Shown here: in pieces, positions 14,030-32,883 of the stretch | Layout of the letters: each line of letters opens with the position of its first letter | Position numbering within the stretch: the stretch's first letter is position 1 | Source: Oscillochloris sp. | Lineage (GTDB): Bacteria > Chloroflexota > Chloroflexia > Chloroflexales > Chloroflexaceae | Length of the DNA stretch: 33,189 nt | Direction: 5' to 3' | Assembly (NCBI GenBank): GCA_012032775.1 | Contig: JAAUQO010000049.1 | Span: 1-33,189 of the forward strand | Translations under genes and position numbers: made by a program | Notes under the pieces: model-generated | Seen by the model: the letters and a program-made list of their open reading frames with translations, nothing else | Databases searched by the model: none | What the model was told of the DNA's origin: nothing

Positions 14030-15435
14030 CTACGCCATCACCTCAGACTGGGCCAACTCCTTCCAACGTCCGTCGGGATCGAGCAGCGTCGCAACATTGC
14101 TGAAACCGAGGCGCCGCAACAAACTTGCGCCGACGTGTGAGCGATAGCCGGAGGCGCAGTGGACGATGATCGGCCGATCCTGCGGAATAGCGACAAGATG
14201 CTTCGGCAGGAAGCCCAACGGAATATGCAGCGCGTCGGGCAAATGCACCTCATCGTATTCGGTCTTGCCGCGCACGTCGAGGATCTGGGTGTCGTGGTTG
14301 GCAAGCGCCGCCGCGAGTTCGCTCAGGCTCGCTGTAGGCAACGTGGCGAGGTTGGCGCCGAGTGCGGCGGCCGGCAGGTAGCCCGGCATATCGTCGATCC
14401 CAATTGCGCGCAACGTACTCAGAATCTTGCCCAGATCGGCGCCTTCCGGCAGCACCAGATAGGTCGGCCGGCTATAATCGACGAACCAACCGGCGTAGGT
14501 ACTGTACATTGTGGTCGTCATCGGCACGCTCAGGCTACCCGGCACATGCCCGGCGATAAACTCGTCCTGGCTGCGCAGATCGATCACCAGCGCACCTGCG
14601 GCCAGGGCCGCGTCGATCTCGGCCCGATCGACCGCAACCGGGATCGCCAGTTCACTCAGCAATGCCGGGCCGACCTTGTTGACATGCTTCATGCGGGCGA
14701 AATAGCGCGGCGGTTCGGGCTGACCGCTCAGCAACCAGTTCACGAACTTGTGCTCGTCTTTGAACTGAAAGGCCGGATTGAACAACTTCTCGTAGCCGAG
14801 AGTCGAAGACGGAATCGCGCCGAGCGCCTTGCCGCATGCGCTCCCGGCGCCGTGGGCCGGCCAGACCTGCAAATAATCCGGCAGGGCCTTGAAGCGCTCG
14901 ACGGTGTGGAACTGCATGCGAGCGCCGGACTCTTTGGTGCCGGTGAAACCGGCGGCTTCTTCCAACAGATCCGGGCGACCGACATCGCCGACAAACAGGA
15001 AATCGCCGGTGAACACGCCCATCGGCGCATCAGCCCCGGCGGTGTCGGTGATCAGGAAGGCGATATGCTCAAGCGTGTGGCCCGAAGTTGCAACCACTTC
15101 GACCTTGATATTGCCGACCATCCAGCTATCGCCGTCGCGCACCAGGATCGCCCGATCAACTTCGGGATACTCGTACTTCCACGCCGCATCGCCCATATCG
15201 CTAAGGTAGATTGTTGCGCCGGTGCGGGCCGCCAACTCGCGCACGCCGCTGACAAAATCGGCGTGAATATGGGTCTCGGTAACATGAGTGATCCGCAGGC
15301 CCTCTTTGGCTGCCGCTTGCAAATACGGCTCCAGATCGCGCATTGGATCGACCACCAGTGCCTCGCCGGTCTTCGCACATCCGACCAGATACGAAGCCTG
15401 GGCCAGGGCTTATCGTAGAAGTATTTTAGAAGCAT
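14030..15435 (-). CDS. Persulfide dioxygenase (ETHE1-like) fused to two rhodanese domains, with frameshift
   Basis: Corrected length ~468 residues. The N-terminal metallo-beta-lactamase fold of the ETHE1/Blh type has VTETHIHADFVSG (metal site), TSGHTLEHIAF, GDFLFVGDVGRPDLL and VWPAHGAGSACG. It should oxidise glutathione-type persulfide to sulfite. Rhodanese 1 follows (LVIDLRSQDEFIAGHVPGS) and lacks a catalytic Cys. The final rhodanese 2 has Cys in IIVHCASGYRSHVG. The true start is the ATG at 15435, preceded by AAAGGGA and giving MLLKYFYDK. The frame then breaks near 15403-15412: AAGCCCTGG is read where AAGGCCCTGG would continue into LAQASYLVGCAKTGEALVVD. Without that one base only an N-terminally clipped frame from 15355 remains. 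The gene lies downstream of the sigma/anti-sigma pair on the same strand. Confidence 0.9.
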
Positions 15436-15548
15436 CGTTGATTCCCTTTCTAAGTTTAGATCGTCATGCGCCAGTCCGCCGGCCAGAAAACCATCCGGCT
15501 TGATCAAGCGCTCCGCGAACATGGCATTGCGCTGCGGGTGATCAGGGG

Positions 15549-15806
15549 TTATCCCAAAGGCGAAATCAAACGCTCCAGCAGGCGTGCTTCCAGATCGGCG
15601 GGCAACGGAGGCGGGGCGATGTCGAGTTTCCGCAAGATCTGCACCGTGCGTCCGAGTGTGTCCAACACGACGCTGCAATCAGGGCAATCGGCGAGATGCA
15701 CATCCAGCTCGGCGCAAAGATCTTCCGGCAGTTCGCCGTCGAGATAATCGTTCAACTGCTCCGCCAACTCGCGGCAACGCTCAAAATTATTGTGCTCATG
15801 CTTCAT
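15549..15806 (-). CDS. Zinc-finger anti-sigma factor (ZAS / zf-HC2 type)
   Basis: A small (85-86 residue) soluble protein with the ZAS signature H-x3-C-x2-C in DVHLADCPDC (His38, Cys42, Cys45 counting from the first of two ATGs) and an upstream Cys12. In the RsrA/ChrR group this site binds zinc, holds the ECF sigma factor, and in some members releases it on thiol oxidation. There is no membrane segment, so it would sense a cytoplasmic signal. The gene overlaps the end of the sigma gene by 11-14 bases, so the two are translationally coupled. The second ATG (15806) is favoured by spacing from GGAGG. Partner: the sigma factor upstream. A persulfide or oxidant signal is inferred from the downstream genes. 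Confidence 0.88.
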   Translation of the reverse strand: MKHEHNNFERCRELAEQLNDYLDGELPEDLCAELDVHLADCPDCSVVLDTLGRTVQILRKLDIAPPPLPADLEARLLERLISPLG

Positions 15807-21007: not shown

Positions 21008-22255
21008 ATGCAGACCTCGATTATTCCGTTTCGGATCGTCGTCGGCGGTCACAGCGTCGATGGGTACGACGTGCGGGCCGGCGCCGCCGGTCGCGAGGCT
21101 GAGAGCGTGCTGAATCTGGGAGAATTGCCGGATGATCAGGCCGAACTGGGGCAGGTGCTTGGCGCCGCACTGTTTTCCGGCTCGATCCATCGCCTGCTGC
21201 TCGATACCGCTCAGGGCGCCGATGTCTCCGGTGCCCGCCTGCAGATCCAACTCCAGGTAACAGCGCCCGAATTGGCGGTGTTGCCCTGGGAGTGGGCAAC
21301 CCTGGGGCAACGCACCCTCTGGCAGCCCGCCCTCCGCGACGATTACCCACTGGTGCGGATCGGCCGTCGCCCGCGGCCCTTGCCGCCGCTGGATCTGAAT
21401 GGCCCGTTGCGGCTGTTGATCGTGTGTGCGCCCGGCGCCGACGGCGCGATCGCCGAACTTGGCCATGCCCTGGCCGGACCGGTTCGCGCCGGCACACTGG
21501 TGGCCGATCTGCTGCGCGATGCCTCGCCATCCGATCTGGCGGCGGCGCTGGCCGAAGAACCCTGCCATCTGCTGCATATCATCGCCCCGATCGGACACAG
21601 TGCGTACGATGCCACGCCGCGCCTGCAATTGGCCCGCAATCTCGATCCGGCCGGATTGGCCGCGCTGCTCGCCGATTATCCCGATCTGCGCATGTGCAGC
21701 TTCTCAGGCGGCGGCGAACCAGCGGCGACCAGCCATTTTGCCGGGCTGCTCCACGAATATCACGGGATGGCGACCCTGGCCCTGGGTGGGTTGGACAACC
21801 CAACCAATGCGCTGTTCTGCAGCGTCGTCTACGGCGAACTGGCCGCCGGCGAACTGGCCGAACTGGCCGTTACCAACGGCCGGATTGCGCTGGCCAACTC
21901 CGGCGCCGGCTGGGGCTTGCCGCAGTTGTGGATGGCCGCCGGAGGTGAGCAACTTTTCACGCTGCATCCGTTGCCGGCGGAACCGGACATCTCGTTGGCC
22001 CAACCGACACTCATCGATCGGGTGAATCGCAACCGGCGCAGCCGCGAAGAGCGCAAGCAACGCAGCCGTAACGCGCAAGGGCCACGATCGCGCGTGGGTA
22101 TTCCCTGGGAACCGATGGTGCAACGGATCGGGGCGGTTTTCGAGCGTCACAGCAAAAGTTTCACCATCGCCAAAACCATTGTCGCGCCCCGGCCCGCCGG
22201 ATCGCCGAAAAACCACAGCAACGCTCGATCCTCAGCTTGCGGATCGTTGTCCTGA
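21008..22255 (+). CDS. CHAT-domain (caspase-like) protein
   Basis: The protein reads as a CHAT-type domain with its usual lead-in. PELAVLPWEWATL corresponds to the LPWEL motif, and YPLVRI then PLRLLIVCAPGA start the core. LLHIIAPIGHSAYD holds the candidate catalytic His, DLRMCSFSGGG the candidate Cys, and ALGGLDNPTNALFCSVVYGE the closing helix. The His motif is not the classic HGH, so peptidase activity is uncertain. After ~residue 335 comes a basic linker (NRRSREERKQRSRN). The frame ends out of register with the next gene. One missing base near 22185-22200 would instead join it to the membrane helix, LysM and NodB parts downstream (736 residues in all). As read it is 415 residues, and its last ~20 residues are probably not real. 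Confidence 0.75.
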   Translation: MQTSIIPFRIVVGGHSVDGYDVRAGAAGREAESVLNLGELPDDQAELGQVLGAALFSGSIHRLLLDTAQGADVSGARLQIQLQVTAPELAVLPWEWATLGQRTLWQPALRDDYPLVRIGRRPRPLPPLDLNGPLRLLIVCAPGADGAIAELGHALAGPVRAGTLVADLLRDASPSDLAAALAEEPCHLLHIIAPIGHSAYDATPRLQLARNLDPAGLAALLADYPDLRMCSFSGGGEPAATSHFAGLLHEYHGMATLALGGLDNPTNALFCSVVYGELAAGELAELAVTNGRIALANSGAGWGLPQLWMAAGGEQLFTLHPLPAEPDISLAQPTLIDRVNRNRRSREERKQRSRNAQGPRSRVGIPWEPMVQRIGAVFERHSKSFTIAKTIVAPRPAGSPKNHSNARSSACGSLS

Positions 22256-23217
22256 GCATCGCGCTGATTATTCTGGCCCTGATGGTTGCGCGCGTGCTGG
22301 AGCGCCCCGAAGCGCAAACTGCGGTTGCCGCCGCCCCGCCGCCGGCGAGCAACGCCACTGAACTTCCGATTGCCGCCCTGATCCCGCAGATGCAAGCTAT
22401 CGTCGATGCCGCAGTTGCCGAGATCGGACAGCGTGGCCCGTTGGCGGCGCCGGAACCGACCGCCTACACCACATATCTGACCCTTGAAGGCGATACGCTG
22501 GCGCAGATTGCGGAGCGCGCCGGCAGCGATCCATACGCCATCGCTGCATACAATTTCCTGAATCCGCAGACGCCGCTACGGGTCGGTCGCCCACTGGTGT
22601 TGCCGATCTATACGCCGCGCGACGGCTTACCGACGGCGCCGATCATCAATCGCGGGAATCCGGCCGAGCCGCTGCTAGCCATGACCTTCGATATTGAACT
22701 CGACGCCGCCTCGCTCTACGATATTCTCACGATTTTGCGCGGGCGCAGCATCAAAGCGACCTTCTTCGTCACCGGGAGTTGGGTGAACAATTTTCCCGAC
22801 GCGGCCCGTGCGATCGTCGATGAAGGCCACGAGATCGCCAATCACTCCCTAACCCACCCCGCATTCACAACGATCGGGCTTGATGGCATCGCCAATGAAC
22901 TCGACGAAACCGAGCGGATTATCCGCGAGGCTACCGGCGTCTCCAGCCGGCCCTACTTCCGCTTCCCCTATGGTGAATCGAACGAGGCCACAATCCAGGC
23001 TGTAGCGCAACGGGGATATGTGGCGTACCACTGGAGCACCGACGATAACGGCATGCCCTTCTGGCTCGATGCCGCCAATGCTGATCCGGGCGCCCTTTAC
23101 GGCGGGATCGTTTTGCTGCATGGCCGCGCCACTACTGTTGAAGCGCTCCCCGGCTACCTTGATCGGCTTGAGGCCCTCGGCATCACCCCAACTACTCTCG
23201 GCACGATCCTGCAGTAG
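22237..23217 (+). CDS. Membrane-anchored LysM + NodB polysaccharide deacetylase
   Basis: Residues 1-~20 form a membrane anchor (VVLSIALIILALMVARVL). After an Ala/Pro linker, a LysM-type module spans ~83-130 (LTLEGDTLAQIAERAG, then LNPQTPLRVGRPLVLP) and should bind peptidoglycan-like glycans. The NodB domain fills ~145-326: MTFDIEL (motif 1, Glu instead of the second Asp), HEIANHSLTHP (metal His pair), RFPYGESN (motif 3) and IVLLHGR (motif 5). It would remove acetyl groups from an extracellular glycan. The only available start before the anchor is TTG 22237, inside the end of the CHAT frame. The same frame is open back to 22072. This lack of a good start is one reason to suspect a single CHAT-anchor-LysM-NodB protein broken by an artefact. 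Confidence 0.85.
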   Translation: MRIVVLSIALIILALMVARVLERPEAQTAVAAAPPPASNATELPIAALIPQMQAIVDAAVAEIGQRGPLAAPEPTAYTTYLTLEGDTLAQIAERAGSDPYAIAAYNFLNPQTPLRVGRPLVLPIYTPRDGLPTAPIINRGNPAEPLLAMTFDIELDAASLYDILTILRGRSIKATFFVTGSWVNNFPDAARAIVDEGHEIANHSLTHPAFTTIGLDGIANELDETERIIREATGVSSRPYFRFPYGESNEATIQAVAQRGYVAYHWSTDDNGMPFWLDAANADPGALYGGIVLLHGRATTVEALPGYLDRLEALGITPTTLGTILQ

Positions 23218-23576: not shown

Positions 23577-23741
23577 ATGTGCTATACTACCATATCGAAT
23601 AACGTCGAAAGATCGTCAATTTTCCTGCGGGAGTGCGGCTGAGCATTTGCGCGGCTACGCTGCCGAAACTTCAACCGGAATGTACCGATCTGCAATCTCG
23701 TGGCGCCCCCGTGGTTCGCAATTCCGCGTACAATGAGGCCG

Positions 23742-24794
23742 ATGTTTCGTCACCAGACATTGTTGTTGGCGCCGTTGGCGCTGCTGGGCTTACTGGCATT
23801 CCTGTTCGGTATGAGCGGGCGCGAACCGGTTATTTCGCGCTGGGGTGCGAACCTCGCCGCGTCAACCAAACTTGATGTACCCGCCGCGCAGGGGTTATCG
23901 GGGATCGCCGAACCGATGCGCGCGGTCGCACTTCCGGTCGCTGACGGCACAGCAGGCGATCGACAAGCATTTCAGCCGGCCGGCAATCTGATCGAAGCAA
24001 CCACCGATCACCAGGCCGCCCTTTACCGCCAGGCAGTCGGCGGCGGCGAACTGCTGTATATCGTCGCGTCACTCGGCGAACCGCTACATCTCCAAGTGAT
24101 TACGGCCAATGGCGCAATTCCGGCCAGCGATGCAACCGGCGACACGATCTGGCGTGACGGCGGCCGCCACTTACAAAGCGTCGCGGCAATGGCCGCAGCC
24201 CCCCACGCATTGCATCAGGCCCAGGTGCCGCTTGGCGCGCTCGCGTTCAGCTTCCACGGCGCCGAACGTACTTCGCCCGAAGGCAGCGTCGTGATCAACG
24301 GCGTCGTCCACCGGGTGAACGCCGGGCGCGGCACACTCTGCATCAGGCCCGACAACAGCGCCGCGATCGGTCTGTTTAGCGCCGAAGAACTCGCCGGCTG
24401 CGCTCAGGCGATCGGCGGCGGGCCGATGATGCTCTGGCAAGGCAAGATCGCCAACCCCGACATCAACGCGGCCACCGATGAGTTTCTGCCGTTCAACCCG
24501 TTGAACGAAGATTTCGTGCAACTCGATTGGCGGATCAAAGTCTATCGCGGAGGATACCCGAAAACCGCCGTTTGTGTCGGCGATCATCCCGATGGCCGAT
24601 CCTTCCTTGTTCTGGCGGTCTCGAATGGCGTCACCGGGGTTGATTTCGCCCGCGCCCTGCGCGATATGGGCTGCCACAGCGCCCTCGGCGGCGATGACGA
24701 CACCTCGACCCAGCTTGTCTGGCGGGGGAAACCACTCCTCGGCAGCAACCGCCCCGTCCCCGATGCGTTGGCGATTTACCACCCCGCACCGTAG
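23742..24794 (+). CDS. Exported phosphodiester glycosidase (NAGPA/DUF2233)-like protein
   Basis: About 350 residues. The N-terminal signal or anchor is LLLAPLALLGLLAFLFGM. The C-terminal half has the family pattern: SVVINGVVHRVNAGRGTLC, then TAVCVGDHPDGRSFLVLAVS, then VDFARALRDMGCHSALGGDDDTST. In the last segment GGDDDTST stands where NAGPA-like proteins have DGGGSs, so the active-site loop is altered. The family hydrolyses sugar-phosphodiester bonds in envelope polymers or capsules. The substrate here is unknown. Starts at GTG 23700, ATG 23733 and ATG 23742 are in frame; the last follows GAGG. It is a lone plus-strand gene between two minus-strand genes, converging on the LCP gene. Confidence 0.7.
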   Translation: MFRHQTLLLAPLALLGLLAFLFGMSGREPVISRWGANLAASTKLDVPAAQGLSGIAEPMRAVALPVADGTAGDRQAFQPAGNLIEATTDHQAALYRQAVGGGELLYIVASLGEPLHLQVITANGAIPASDATGDTIWRDGGRHLQSVAAMAAAPHALHQAQVPLGALAFSFHGAERTSPEGSVVINGVVHRVNAGRGTLCIRPDNSAAIGLFSAEELAGCAQAIGGGPMMLWQGKIANPDINAATDEFLPFNPLNEDFVQLDWRIKVYRGGYPKTAVCVGDHPDGRSFLVLAVSNGVTGVDFARALRDMGCHSALGGDDDTSTQLVWRGKPLLGSNRPVPDALAIYHPAP

Positions 24795-24829: not shown

Positions 24830-26308
24830 CTACGGCGTCATATCCCCGCGCAAGAACCGGCTCATCAAGGCGCTTATCGCCCCCGGATTCGCGAAAGTCG
24901 CATATGGGTCGTCCGCCAGTACACCCTCCGAAACCATGGTTTCGTCCACGGCGTAGCGCTCAACATGTTGCGGCAAGATCGTGCGAAACGCCCAGGCGAA
25001 ACCCAGCATTTGCTCAAGCGACATATCGGTCTGCACATGATCGCGCAGGGCCACACTCACATCGGATAACAATTCAACTTGCGACACCGGATCACGTTGG
25101 CGCACCTGATCGATCATGGCCAGCAAAATCTGTTGCTGGCGACGGTTGCGCGCGTAGTTGCTGTCCATATGTCGCACGCGCGCATAAACCAGGGCGGTCG
25201 CACCATCCATGCGCTGCATCCCCGGCGCAAAATACACCTCGCGATAGCCGTAATCCATGGTTGGATAGGCCGAATCGTACAACGCCTCCTCAACAAAGAT
25301 ATCAACCCCGCCGATCGCATCCACCGCAGCGATAAAAGCACTAAAATCAACCCGTAACACATGCTGGATCGGGATATCCAGGTATTCCGACACTGTCCGG
25401 CGGGCCAATTCAACCCCACCGCCCAACCCCGGATCAAGATCACCATACACCGTCGCGGCATTGATCCGGGCCTGGCCATAACCAGGGATCGGCACGATCA
25501 GATCGCGCGGCAACGAAAGCATCGCCACGCGCTGGCGGCGCGGTTCCAGCCGCAACACCATGATCGAATCGGAGCGCGTAGCCCAGCTTTCGCCCGGCCG
25601 GCGATCACTGCCAAGCAGCAAAATATTCACCGCTTCGTCGCCGATCGGCTGCACCGGCGCAGTCGCCATCAACGTCGGCACCGGCATCCCAACGGCAGGC
25701 AAGCGCACTGCGGTCGGGCTGGGCCGAAAGCCGGCGGTCGGCGTCGCAACCGGCGGAACGGTCGGCGGCTCAGCGATCAGCGGATCGAGCGGCGTGATCT
25801 GAATTGGCGCAAGATCGAGCGGCGCCTCGGTCGCAACGGCACTGGGGCGCACGATCACTGCCGTTGGCACAAGCGCTGTCGGCCCGGCCGAATTGGGCAA
25901 ACCAGGCCGGGCGAGTGCCGGTGTCGGCTGGAGTTGCATTGCCGCCACACTTTGGCTGATCGTATATGCGGCAAATGCCACCCGCCCGAGATTGATCAGC
26001 ATAAACAACAGCACAATACCCAACACTGCTGTTCCGGCAATTCGCAACCAGGATGAACGAGCAGGCCGTATATGCGTTCCGCTTCGTCGCATCACCGGAA
26101 CAGCCGGGCGTAGTATCGCGGGATTTATCGCCGGCTTTGTCAGCAGATCGCGCAACAGATCGGCATCCTGCTGCATCCGCACGCTACGACAATCGACGCA
26201 TCGCGCCAGATGCATATCAAGCTGCTCGCGATCGGGGCCTTCGCCGGATTCACGCAGAAGGCGGCGCGCAGTCCGGCAGTCTATTTCTATCGGAGGTTTT
26301 TTGGGCAT
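24830..26308 (-). CDS. LytR-CpsA-Psr (LCP) protein with N-terminal anti-sigma-like zinc finger
   Basis: A 492-residue protein with an unusual front end. Residues 1-~55 are a ZAS-like finger: Cys11, then MHLARCVDC with His33, Cys37 and Cys40 (H-x3-C-x2-C). A membrane helix follows at ~85-105 (IAGTAVLGIVLLFMLINLG), then a long Pro/Thr/Ala-rich extracellular linker to ~220. The LCP catalytic domain follows: NILLLGSDRRPG, TRSDSIMVLRLEP, MLSLPRDLIVPIPG, ARINAATVYGD and ALVYARVRHMDSNYARNRRQ. LCP enzymes attach polyprenyl-linked glycans to the wall or envelope. The ATG at 26308 starts the finger; the longer reading from 26467 adds unrelated residues. The finger faces the cytoplasm, so it could bind a sigma factor or another regulator. 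It converges on the glycosidase gene. Confidence 0.88.
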   Translation of the reverse strand: MPKKPPIEIDCRTARRLLRESGEGPDREQLDMHLARCVDCRSVRMQQDADLLRDLLTKPAINPAILRPAVPVMRRSGTHIRPARSSWLRIAGTAVLGIVLLFMLINLGRVAFAAYTISQSVAAMQLQPTPALARPGLPNSAGPTALVPTAVIVRPSAVATEAPLDLAPIQITPLDPLIAEPPTVPPVATPTAGFRPSPTAVRLPAVGMPVPTLMATAPVQPIGDEAVNILLLGSDRRPGESWATRSDSIMVLRLEPRRQRVAMLSLPRDLIVPIPGYGQARINAATVYGDLDPGLGGGVELARRTVSEYLDIPIQHVLRVDFSAFIAAVDAIGGVDIFVEEALYDSAYPTMDYGYREVYFAPGMQRMDGATALVYARVRHMDSNYARNRRQQQILLAMIDQVRQRDPVSQVELLSDVSVALRDHVQTDMSLEQMLGFAWAFRTILPQHVERYAVDETMVSEGVLADDPYATFANPGAISALMSRFLRGDMTP

Positions 26309-26613
26309 AACAGCCGTAAATATGCCGACATCGCCATAACAAACATTGCACAATCGAACTGTTGCCGTTTCGACGGCACATGGAAAGAATATGTTGAAAG
26401 TCAGCGCCGGAACAGCGAAATCGCGCCATGCCTCAGGCATAACAATAAGCGCCCGGCATAGCGCCACAATCGTTGCGACAGTATACCATTGTGCGCTGGA
26501 ATCTGGTATTATGGGGCCGTCTTATTCAATACATTCACCCTATTTTTCGCGAAGCTATGCCATGCTGGGATAGGCTTTCGCCGTTCACCAGAGCTGCGTC
26601 CGGCTGTTGGTCC

Positions 26614-29148: not shown

Positions 29149-31311
29149 ATGTCTATGCTGAAGCAGAGATCCTGGGTACTCCATAGGCTATTCAGCATCC
29201 CCTCGGTTGCAATACTTCTGATCGGCAGTCTGCTTCTGGCCGGCTGTGGCCTGTTCGGCGGCAGCAGCCCTGATCCTGTGCCAACCACACCGCCCACGGC
29301 TAGCGATACACAGATAACCCTTGACTCACCGGCCGGCGGCGCCAATGTACGTAGCCCGCTCATCATCAGCGGCCGCGTCACACCTCGCCCACCGAATAAT
29401 ACCGTCAGCTATAGCGTCTTCGACCTCTCCAATACATTGCTCGCCAGAGGCACCATCCAATTGCAAGGCGATCCCAACGGGCCGGGCACATTCGCCCAGC
29501 CGGTTGCCTACACCCTGGAACAGGCCGGTATGGGCCGCGTCGAAGTTGTGGCGATCAATCCTAACAGCGGCGAAGTCCTGGCGATTGCGTCACTGAATAT
29601 CAGCCTTAGTGCAAATCCCGGCCAAGCGGGGCAAACAACGCTGACACCAACCAATGCGCCGCCCCAAACGCCAATCCCTACGATCGTCGGCTCGGATCAA
29701 ACAATCACGATTGAGACACCGCCGCCCGGCACTACGGTCGGCAGCCCGGTTGTCATTACCGGCCGCACAACACAGATGCCGGCCAACGGGCAGTTGTTCT
29801 ACCTGGTGCGCGATCAGGTCGGCGCGGTGATCGGCTCCGGCCAGTTCGGCGTTAACTCAAGCGGTAGCGGCAATTCCTTCAACGCCTCAATCAATTTTAA
29901 TCTGCCTGCACAGGGCGGCCAGATCGAGATCGATCTGTTTGAACCGGCGGCAAACGGCTCCGCCAGAGCCAGAGCAGCCATTTTACTAACCGTGGCCCCG
30001 CCCCAACAGATCACGATCGAAAGCCCGCCGCCCGGCACTACGGTCGGCAGCCCAGTCGTGATCACCGGGCGCACCGCCCGCTACCCGTTCCAGGGCAATC
30101 TAGCCTACCGCTTCACCGATAACAGCGGCCAGAATCTTGGCGAAGGAATCTTCCCGGTCAATGGCAACCCCGGCGGCCCAAGCAACTTCACCGCTTCACT
30201 CCAGTTCAATCTGCCGGCTCAAGGTGGTGTTGTGCGGCTGGAAGTGTACGACCAGAATGCCGTCAATAACGAGATCGTCGCTAATACGTCGCTTGATCTG
30301 AATGTGCTCCCGCCGTCCCAGACAATCACAATCGAAACTCCGCCGCCCGGCACGGTTGTCGGCAGCCCGGTTGTGCTTACCGGCCGCGTGGTGCGCCCGC
30401 CGGTCGGCGGCCAGATCAGCTATCTGGTACGCGGGCCTAACGGCACAAATATCGGCCAGGGTTCGTTCGGTATCAACGGTACGACGTTCAATGCCTCGAT
30501 CAGTTTCACACCTCCGCCCCAGGGCGGCGCGATCACAATTGAGTTGCGCGCCAATGATTCATCGCCAACCCAGCCGCCGGCCAGCGCCTCGATCAGCCTG
30601 AATGTCAACCCGACCACACCACCGACAACCAGCCAGCAGATCACGATCGACAGCCCGGCGCCCGGCACCGCCGTCGGCAGCCCGGTTGTACTCACCGGCC
30701 GCGTGGCTCGCTATCCCTTCGAGGGCAACCTCGGCTATCGCATCAGCAGCGGCAGCGGGCAAGAGTTGGGGCGCGGCACGATCCCGGTGCAGGGCGGGCC
30801 GAACAGCACCGCCATCCCGTGGGTCGGTTCCCTGACGTTCAGCGAGCCGGCCGGCGGCGGCCAGATCATCGTCGAGGTCTTCGATCAAGATCAGGGCAGC
30901 GGCGCGATCCTCGCCACCGCAACCCTGCGGCTTCAGGTTAATGCTCCACCGATTCAACCTACCGCACCGATCGTGATCGGCCAGGAGATCGTGATCGAAA
31001 CGCCTACCGATGGTACACTGATCGGCAATCCGGTGGTGCTGACCGGTCGCGCAGGCCTGCGGCCATCAGACGGTAACCTGAACTATCGTGTGCTGACACT
31101 CGATGGAAGCGAGATCGCCGCCGGCATCTTCCCGGTCGATCCATCGCCGCGCAGCAACACCATCGAATGGCAAGTCTCGATCAACTTCCCGGCGCCACGT
31201 ACTGCCCAGGATCTTATTATCGAGATCAGCGACCGGCCTGATGCTGCCGACCCCGCCGACGACGAACCTAATCAGATCGCAAAAGATAGTGTGCAGGTAC
31301 GGCTGAATTAA
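29149..31311 (+). CDS. Lipoprotein with six Gmad2-type immunoglobulin-like repeats
   Basis: A 720-residue lipoprotein. The signal sequence ends in LLLAGC, so Cys33 is the lipidated residue. Six repeats of roughly 100-115 residues follow. Each opens with a variant of ITIETPPPGTTVGSPVVITG followed by a GR motif, and later carries NLPAQGG-type strands. The openings lie near nucleotides 29314, 29701, 30007, 30322, 30637 and 30985. The first and last units are the most diverged. The repeat matches the Gmad2 domain known from spore germination and envelope proteins; in an organism without spores it is probably a stalk or adhesion module. Thr/Pro linkers separate the first units. Function unknown. 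ATG 29149 or 29155 could be used. Confidence 0.88.
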   Translation: MSMLKQRSWVLHRLFSIPSVAILLIGSLLLAGCGLFGGSSPDPVPTTPPTASDTQITLDSPAGGANVRSPLIISGRVTPRPPNNTVSYSVFDLSNTLLARGTIQLQGDPNGPGTFAQPVAYTLEQAGMGRVEVVAINPNSGEVLAIASLNISLSANPGQAGQTTLTPTNAPPQTPIPTIVGSDQTITIETPPPGTTVGSPVVITGRTTQMPANGQLFYLVRDQVGAVIGSGQFGVNSSGSGNSFNASINFNLPAQGGQIEIDLFEPAANGSARARAAILLTVAPPQQITIESPPPGTTVGSPVVITGRTARYPFQGNLAYRFTDNSGQNLGEGIFPVNGNPGGPSNFTASLQFNLPAQGGVVRLEVYDQNAVNNEIVANTSLDLNVLPPSQTITIETPPPGTVVGSPVVLTGRVVRPPVGGQISYLVRGPNGTNIGQGSFGINGTTFNASISFTPPPQGGAITIELRANDSSPTQPPASASISLNVNPTTPPTTSQQITIDSPAPGTAVGSPVVLTGRVARYPFEGNLGYRISSGSGQELGRGTIPVQGGPNSTAIPWVGSLTFSEPAGGGQIIVEVFDQDQGSGAILATATLRLQVNAPPIQPTAPIVIGQEIVIETPTDGTLIGNPVVLTGRAGLRPSDGNLNYRVLTLDGSEIAAGIFPVDPSPRSNTIEWQVSINFPAPRTAQDLIIEISDRPDAADPADDEPNQIAKDSVQVRLN

Positions 31312-32176: not shown

Positions 32177-32342
32177 GGGCGCCGCCGTTGCGCATGGTGC
32201 ATTGCGTATTGCGCATCTCTATCCAAAGTTATAGGCCTTCGACGGCATAAATCTATCTTTTCACACTCCCGCAAAACCGCTTGCAGCGCTATCCTAGAGT
32301 CAGAACCGTATACGCGAATCGTTCGACTGAAAGGATACAACC

Positions 32343-32883
32343 ATGCAAGCACATACTATCAATGAACCGCGCGATCAAGACCACAAGGCGAAAGATCGCC
32401 GGATCACCGGCATCATTCTGGTAGCAATCGGATTGACGGCTCTGGCAGGCCAGTTCTCGATCTCGGCGTGTGGACTCTCGCCATTCTGGCGCTGATCTTT
32501 CTTGTTACCGGCGCAATGAATCGCTCGGCCGGCCTGCTCATTCCCGGCGGCATCCTGGGTGGTATCGCCCTTGGCGCGGGTTTGATCGAAGGGCCGTTCG
32601 CAGGTGTTGGTGATCCACTGAGCGGCGGTATCTTCCTGCTGAGTTTCGCCGCCGGTTGGGTGCTGATCACCGTGATGTCGCTCATTTTCACCAAAATCCG
32701 CAGCCCTGGGCGCTGATCCCGGCCGGCGTGATGGCCTTTATCGGCGGCGCGATTATGTTCGGCGAACGCGGCGAAAAGCTGCTGGAGAGCGTCTTCGGGT
32801 CGCTGAATTACTTCTGGCCGGTGGCCCTGATTATCGGCGGCGCATTCATTCTGCTGCGGCGGAAAAGCCCAAATGGTGAGTGA
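32343..32883 (+). CDS. Small polytopic membrane protein (LiaF/LiaI-like region), two frameshifts
   Basis: Corrected length ~180 residues with about five to six hydrophobic helices. The start is ATG 32343 after GAAAGGA; a polar front (NEPRDQDHKAKDRR) leads into ITGIILVAIGLTALAGQF. The frame breaks at ~32450-32456 and resumes as LDLGVWTLAILALIFLVTG. It breaks again at ~32700-32712 and resumes as WALIPAGVMAFIGGAIMFG, ending in VALIIGGAFILLRRKSPNGE. Each break is cured by one extra base (the second lies in an AGCCCTGGG run). The closing FWPVALIIGGAFILLRR pattern resembles the LiaF/DUF5668-type membrane region. Its position after a NarL-type regulator supports a role in envelope stress signalling, but that is inference. 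If the breaks are real the gene is dead. Confidence 0.7.

Follow-up and report, generated by a model that had tools for sequence, protein, structure and literature searches.

When a reading frame for a CHAT-like product runs out of register into a second frame for a membrane-anchored LysM-NodB product, are these two neighbouring genes or one gene with a broken frame, and what would a protein joining them do? This question is raised by a locus of Oscillochloris sp. lying in the 33,189 nucleotides of DNA that were analysed (contig JAAUQO010000049.1, hereafter the window). What is known of CHAT domains comes chiefly from proteases of cell death and defence and, with HetF, from septal wall synthesis.

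The CHAT frame of the window runs from ATG 21008 to a stop codon ending at 22255 (415 aa), and the LysM-NodB frame is free of stop codons from 22072 to 23217 (381 codons). The two frames share 19 bases (22237-22255) and are related by a shift of the -1 type; TTG 22237 is the sole common start codon 5' of the membrane helix in the LysM-NodB frame, where no ATG is present. This reading bears out the initial annotation, which had reported the 19-base overlap out of register, the extension of the second frame back to 22072 and TTG 22237 as its only start before the helix. Pfam identified LysM (PF01476, 1.1e-6, frame residues 139-178) and Polysacc_deac_1 (PF01522, 1.6e-29) in the second frame; for the CHAT frame, Pfam, NCBIfam and PADLOC gave no family. 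Comparisons were made with the two window frames as they stand and with intact proteins from other genomes. The best overall explanation, to which we assign a probability of about 0.6, is that 21008-23217 would be a single gene that a change of frame within the linker has broken in this assembly, and that its bitopic product would couple a pseudo-CHAT domain to a wall domain. The features of the locus are as follows:

21008..21990, plus strand: putative pseudo-CHAT domain, lacking the His and Cys of the dyad, with the predicted fold over residues 1-320 (AF2 model with pLDDT 93, Foldseek, profile match to 8tl0, dyad columns)
21991..22183, plus strand: predicted cytoplasmic linker, basic and poorly conserved, in the CHAT frame (alignment to intact chains; low-confidence segment in the model of a full-length relative)
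22183..22212, no strand given: frame-change stretch, -1 type (codon log-odds, Viterbi path, intact-chain residues 386-398)
22072..23217, plus strand: open frame with the linker end, membrane helix, LysM and NodB (frame reading, Pfam)
22243..22299, plus strand: predicted single membrane helix IVVLSIALIILALMVARVL, basic N-side flank 6+/1- (hydropathy 2.94, flank charge; position equal in relatives and in the model)
22462..22605, plus strand: LysM domain (PF01476, 1.1e-6)
22654..23214, plus strand: NodB (polysaccharide deacetylase-like) domain with TFDIE, NHSLTHP, RFPYG, HWSTDD and IVLLH (PF01522, 1.6e-29; PDB phmmer matches to CE4 proteins; motif table)

The two frames correspond to one chain in relatives

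The CHAT frame was searched against 61 relatives and found a match in 42 of these genomes, many of them with an open frame of 707-803 aa. In 14 genomes, the CHAT fold, one membrane helix, LysM and NodB are encoded by a single uninterrupted frame of 707-803 aa (loci L003, L005, L008, L009, L012, L014, L016, L036 and L024-L029). The complete fused frames come from two families and four genera of Chloroflexales, and one of the 14 genomes, G042, is a single contig of 5.8 Mb. Two further fused frames are cut by contig ends (L085 and L091); the 661 aa frame of L091 reaches the contig end with the residues DRKSTRLNSSH, which resemble adapter-derived sequence. The fused gene of L015 (L037:5908-8082) carries an in-frame TAG within the CHAT part and has lost the NodB metal His (NLSQTHP), and is probably a decaying copy. 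Class-wide and phylum-wide searches for orthologues outside Chloroflexales gave only weaker, ordinary CHAT matches (1e-43 or worse).

The whole chains of the relatives align to both window frames with E values of 1e-49 to 1e-104, which excludes a match by chance. With tblastn, intact chains match the window end to end, in two pieces that lie in different frames; in L003 and L005, whose linkers can be aligned, the junction between the pieces falls at chain residues 386-398, with an overlap at window positions 22189-22234. The initial annotation had proposed that CHAT domain, membrane anchor, LysM and NodB form one protein, had suggested searching for homologues with both domains in one chain and comparing their linkers, and had named close homologues encoded as two genes as the observation that would speak against it. 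The proposal holds for the family: the fused chains exist, residues 386-398 of intact chains lie at the frame-change stretch, and no close homologues encoded as two genes were found, the homologues being either fused or devoid of the NodB half. These data make it very likely that, in the organism itself, the window's two frames are translated into a single chain.

Fused and short forms are intermixed

Many relatives encode a short form of about 390-494 aa, composed of the pseudo-CHAT, the membrane helix and a proline-rich tail, without LysM-NodB (L002, L004, L006, L007, L010, L011, L013, L017-L023, L030 and others). The short forms are under purifying selection and include those of single-contig Chloroflexus-like genomes; when the short-form genomes were searched for a NodB copy elsewhere, no close one was found. 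In a CHAT tree of 45 rows, which is unrooted, fused and short forms are intermixed and at least four changes are required; the window lies among fused and short forms, and its nearest kin are without strong support. In the NodB tree, the window, all fused members and L052 form one clade (support 100/100), and the stand-alone LysM-NodB proteins form a clade separate from it. L052 (minus strand, 503 aa) is the only non-fused NodB in the fused clade and has a signal-like N-terminus and two surface-repeat-like stretches where CHAT would be. The simplest reading is one old fusion followed by several losses of the outer half, with the proviso that unrooted counts give no direction between gain and loss. 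Because the short forms keep CHAT and helix without LysM-NodB, the sequences indicate that the CHAT part must have a role independent of the NodB half.

The frame break is probably an assembly error

Codon log-odds trained on the other genes of the window, without homologues, placed the best frame switch at 22183-22200. A seven-state codon-usage Viterbi path switched directly at 22183/22184, with no non-coding gap between the frames, and with another training set the switch fell at 22186. This agrees with the initial annotation, which had located the loss of frame near 22185-22200 and had considered the repair credible in view of other one-base losses. The genome is indeed rich in such breaks: counting frame switches whose old frame continues for more than 25 bases, in the window and 20 other contig stretches (285.5 kb) and, as control, in 400 kb of a complete relative, we obtained 23 and 8 breaks, respectively. 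This is a four-fold excess (80 versus 20 per Mb, p = 2e-4) in a comparison where overlapping genes add to both counts and the control genome is a different species. The breaks of this genome are of the one-base-loss type in 19 of the 23 cases (p = 0.0013). Codon usage also revealed further same-strand frame changes in the window at 1320, 15410-15800 and 32336-32856, which fits a break-rich assembly. Given this four-fold excess of breaks, mostly of the base-loss type, an error of assembly has more in its favour than a real split of the gene; we consider the frame break probably to be such an error, and otherwise a natural variant.

The alternative with most in its favour is a true mutation, by which the outer half would be in the process of being lost in the window's lineage, as happened several times in relatives. 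The intermixing of fused and short forms over the CHAT tree, the short-form genomes without a close NodB copy and the decaying gene of L015/L037 would all accommodate it. However, (i) the window NodB shows no sign of decay (381 codons free of stops, motifs 2-5 retained, normal codon scores), (ii) the short forms stop 3' of the helix whereas the window CHAT frame stops before it, and (iii) frame breaks are numerous in this genome. We regard a true mutation as unlikely.

We find still less probable a pair of real, translationally coupled genes overlapping by 19 bases, which would yield a soluble CHAT-like product and, from TTG 22237, a LysM-NodB product anchored in the membrane. The sequence as given does read so, and a product from this TTG would start with a good signal anchor. 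However, no purine-rich ribosome-binding stretch was seen 5' of TTG 22237, and the last ~20 codons of the CHAT frame score strongly negative for codon usage and match nothing. The relatives also disagree with two genes: the close NodB proteins are all fused or, in L052 only, joined to another N-terminal part, none was found as a separate gene beside a CHAT gene, and the helix is on the CHAT chain in all family members with a complete CHAT but one (L094). Finally, a programmed -1 frameshift at the run near 22208-22212 that would give a soluble CHAT protein besides the full chain is highly improbable: although a -1 shift is what is seen and the CHAT frame contains an A run (GAAAAAC) inside the possible switch stretch, such a shift occurs in 0/14 intact relatives, so that no signal is conserved, codon scores place the switch 5' of the A run, and the many unrelated breaks of the same genome require no such device.

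The inner domain has a CHAT fold without catalytic dyad

PF12770 was matched by 3/10 relatives (best 4.6e-8); the window copy alone is without a Pfam match. A family profile matches the solved SAVED-CHAT protein 8tl0 (1.5e-15). The AF2 model of the window's CHAT domain reached a pLDDT of 93.2 and a pTM of 0.91, and the top Foldseek matches of the predicted fold were SAVED-CHAT (4.9e-10) and separase (4.5e-7). Membership in the CHAT fold, as judged from similarity and from the caspase-hemoglobinase fold of the model, is well supported.

The catalytic residues are missing. In an alignment that is gapped around the Cys column and in which most rows have no Cys within the strand end, the Cys of the NAC-type motif is absent from all ~40 family members. 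The position of the catalytic His (GHG) is occupied by P, T, A, G, D, E or R, and by His in L029 alone; the dyad His and Cys are retained in 4/6 and 5/7 of the CHAT paralogues shown from the same order. The dN/dS values between close pairs, 0.05-0.25 for CHAT and 0.06-0.14 for LysM-NodB, indicate purifying selection on both halves. Because the dyad is lost and the dN/dS of CHAT is 0.05-0.25, we conclude that the inner domain is almost certainly a conserved pseudoprotease rather than a relic. A further observation on CHAT proteins concerns L053:279-2651 and L057 (minus strand), each of which encodes a response-regulator receiver, an AAA (NtrC-like) region and a C-terminal CHAT in one chain, with the Cys motif in one and not in the other.

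A signal-transducing caspase, in which an active CHAT protease would be freed or switched by the wall-binding outer part, is very improbable. Proteases of the CHAT family do work through a His-Cys pair that is allosterically controlled (PMC10028731), and active CHAT-TM-outer-domain proteins occur in Chloroflexota. However, the dyad is lost at both positions across the family, and no other conserved Cys-His pair substitutes for it: the sole invariant His pair is HxxH (window residues 187 and 190), and the family's near-invariant Cys 274, adjacent to Val/Tyr, is not invariant. Of the caspase-like cytoplasmic domain announced by the initial annotation, the fold and, by flank charge, the predicted inside location are thus retained, and an active caspase is not.

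The outer half and the predicted topology

A single hydrophobic segment separates the two halves, with a basic N-side flank in almost every member (in the window 6+/1-, versus 1+/2- on the C side). Since the N-side flank is basic, the positive-inside rule predicts the CHAT domain inside, and the sequence fits a NodB domain outside. The model of a full-length relative has a moderate pLDDT of 70, and the mutual placement of its domains was not used.

The NodB domain of the window keeps motifs 2-5 (NHSLTHP, RPYFRFPYG, HWSTDD and IVLLH), with two His, Arg, Asp and His, the Arg and Asp being assigned from motif position alone. Motif 1 reads TFDIE: the first Asp, the presumed base, is kept, but in every fused member Ile stands in place of the metal-binding Asp, and the Glu that follows is kept in all of them but L015. 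Active CE4 enzymes have two Asp in motif 1, one as base and one for the metal (PMC4505593, PMC10967932). At this motif, the LysM-NodB proteins that stand alone in the same genomes read TLDAG or TIDLE. CE4 structures topped the fold search, and among the nearest solved structures several carry the label CE4 pseudoenzyme. By predicted fold and PF01522 the domain belongs to the CE4/NodB family; its activity as a deacetylase is uncertain because motif 1 lacks the metal Asp. The glycan deacetylase that the initial annotation had placed outside can therefore be kept as a NodB fold on the predicted outer side, its enzymatic role being in doubt.

Genes around the locus

Two neighbours are syntenic with those of fused relatives:

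23700..24794, plus strand: phosphodiester glycosidase (NAGPA), syntenic with fused relatives at three loci
24830..26467, minus strand: LytR-CpsA-Psr wall-polymer ligase family, syntenic with fused relatives

NAGPA and LytR-CpsA-Psr adjoin the fused gene in L031, L034 and L037, and a PGA_cap protein lies in between at the syntenic relative locus; the synteny is confined to three of the loci examined, the others having different neighbours. NAGPA, LytR-CpsA-Psr and PGA_cap point to envelope glycans, which fits the outer half. PADLOC gave no match here, the neighbours being ordinary envelope genes with no known anti-phage CHAT system. Elsewhere in the window, 29149-31311 encodes a protein of 720 aa in which four stretches are of the Gmad2 type (spore-germination immunoglobulin-like).

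A proposed link between cytoplasm and cell wall

We propose a bitopic protein in which an N-terminal CHAT fold without dyad would lie in the cytoplasm, followed by the basic linker, one helix and, outside, a proline-rich spacer, LysM and NodB in this order. LysM would anchor the outer part on peptidoglycan, NodB would act on or bind N-acetylated wall glycan, and the pseudo-CHAT may be a module for protein docking or regulation, connecting the outer part with a partner in the cytoplasm. Candidate partners would be the divisome, the elongation machinery or a nucleotide or stress signal, and the result would be wall modification at the right place or time. This coupling by the pseudo-CHAT is offered tentatively, as an argument from analogy to which we give a little under even odds. 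It is also conceivable, if rather doubtful, that the family is a conserved double pseudoenzyme, in which the dead caspase on the inside and a CE4 domain with an altered metal site on the outside, linked across the membrane, would serve to tether or sense the wall. On the same doubtful footing, such a protein might convey information between peptidoglycan and a cytoplasmic partner and be neither protease nor deacetylase.

With the preferred reading, that of a broken single gene, the locus reveals a Chloroflexales family in which a CHAT fold kept without its dyad is tied via one helix to a putative wall-binding NodB domain. Here a protease fold would have been taken over for coupling the cytoplasm to the cell wall, a clean case open to tests, in filamentous bacteria about whose division and envelope little has been learnt. 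Relatives that lack the outer half but retain CHAT and helix, a pattern seen repeatedly, are natural mutants in which to study the role of the inner half.

Comparison with known systems

A limited literature search found no paper on a layout of CHAT, polysaccharide deacetylase and LysM, and none on a catalytically inactive caspase-type CHAT. One paper on a CHAT fusion in Chloroflexi was considered and set aside, as it deals with hypermutated antigen sensors and not with the CHAT-LysM-NodB layout. The initial annotation had called the layout one not known to it from described families; this stands for the exact CHAT/LysM/NodB arrangement and has to be narrowed for the general design, for which the CHAT-TM-PD40 protein of L055 and HetF are precedents.

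The LysM- or lipobox-anchored CE4/NodB wall proteins (PgdA, PdaB, PdaC and the Bacillus anthracis CE4 pseudoenzymes) share the NodB fold and motifs 2-5 with the family, and the solved structures nearest to the family NodB are CE4 proteins, the top ones labelled pseudoenzymes. However, these wall proteins have TFDD at motif 1, whereas the family has TFDIE and a cytoplasmic CHAT half. Some inactive CE4 family members still shape the wall (PMC4505593).

On the inner side, SAVED-CHAT (8tl0), separase and the TPR-CHAT protein Csx29 have the same fold as the family. They are active proteases, whereas the family has no SAVED, no TPR, no CRISPR link and no PADLOC match. Csx29 and separase carry a pseudo-caspase domain beside the active one, and the CHAT1 pseudo-caspase of Csx29 is an interface (PMC10028731). 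The Chloroflexota CHAT-TM-PD40 protein (L055:2153-4486), from the same bacterial order, has the same succession of CHAT, helix and outer domain as the family. Unlike the family, it keeps GHG and NAC and looks active, and its outer domain is a beta-propeller; the CHAT tree separates the two (100/100).

HetF of Anabaena (CHAT-TM-TPR) docks on the septal peptidoglycan synthase FtsI in the divisome (PMC8406250). It resembles the family in its N-terminal CHAT, its membrane helix and, through FtsI, its role in septal peptidoglycan (PMC8406250), but its C-terminus is TPR and not LysM-NodB, and the dyad is absent in the family. The match to HetF is weak (one fused relative, L026, E 0.003): with the NCBIfam HetF model, L026 scored 15.9 bits against a cut-off of 1200, the window copy gave no match, and there was no TPR. 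Nevertheless, HetF, which sits in the divisome through FtsI (PMC8406250), is the best precedent for the proposed docking role of the pseudo-CHAT, and the interface formed by Csx29 CHAT1 is another (PMC10028731).
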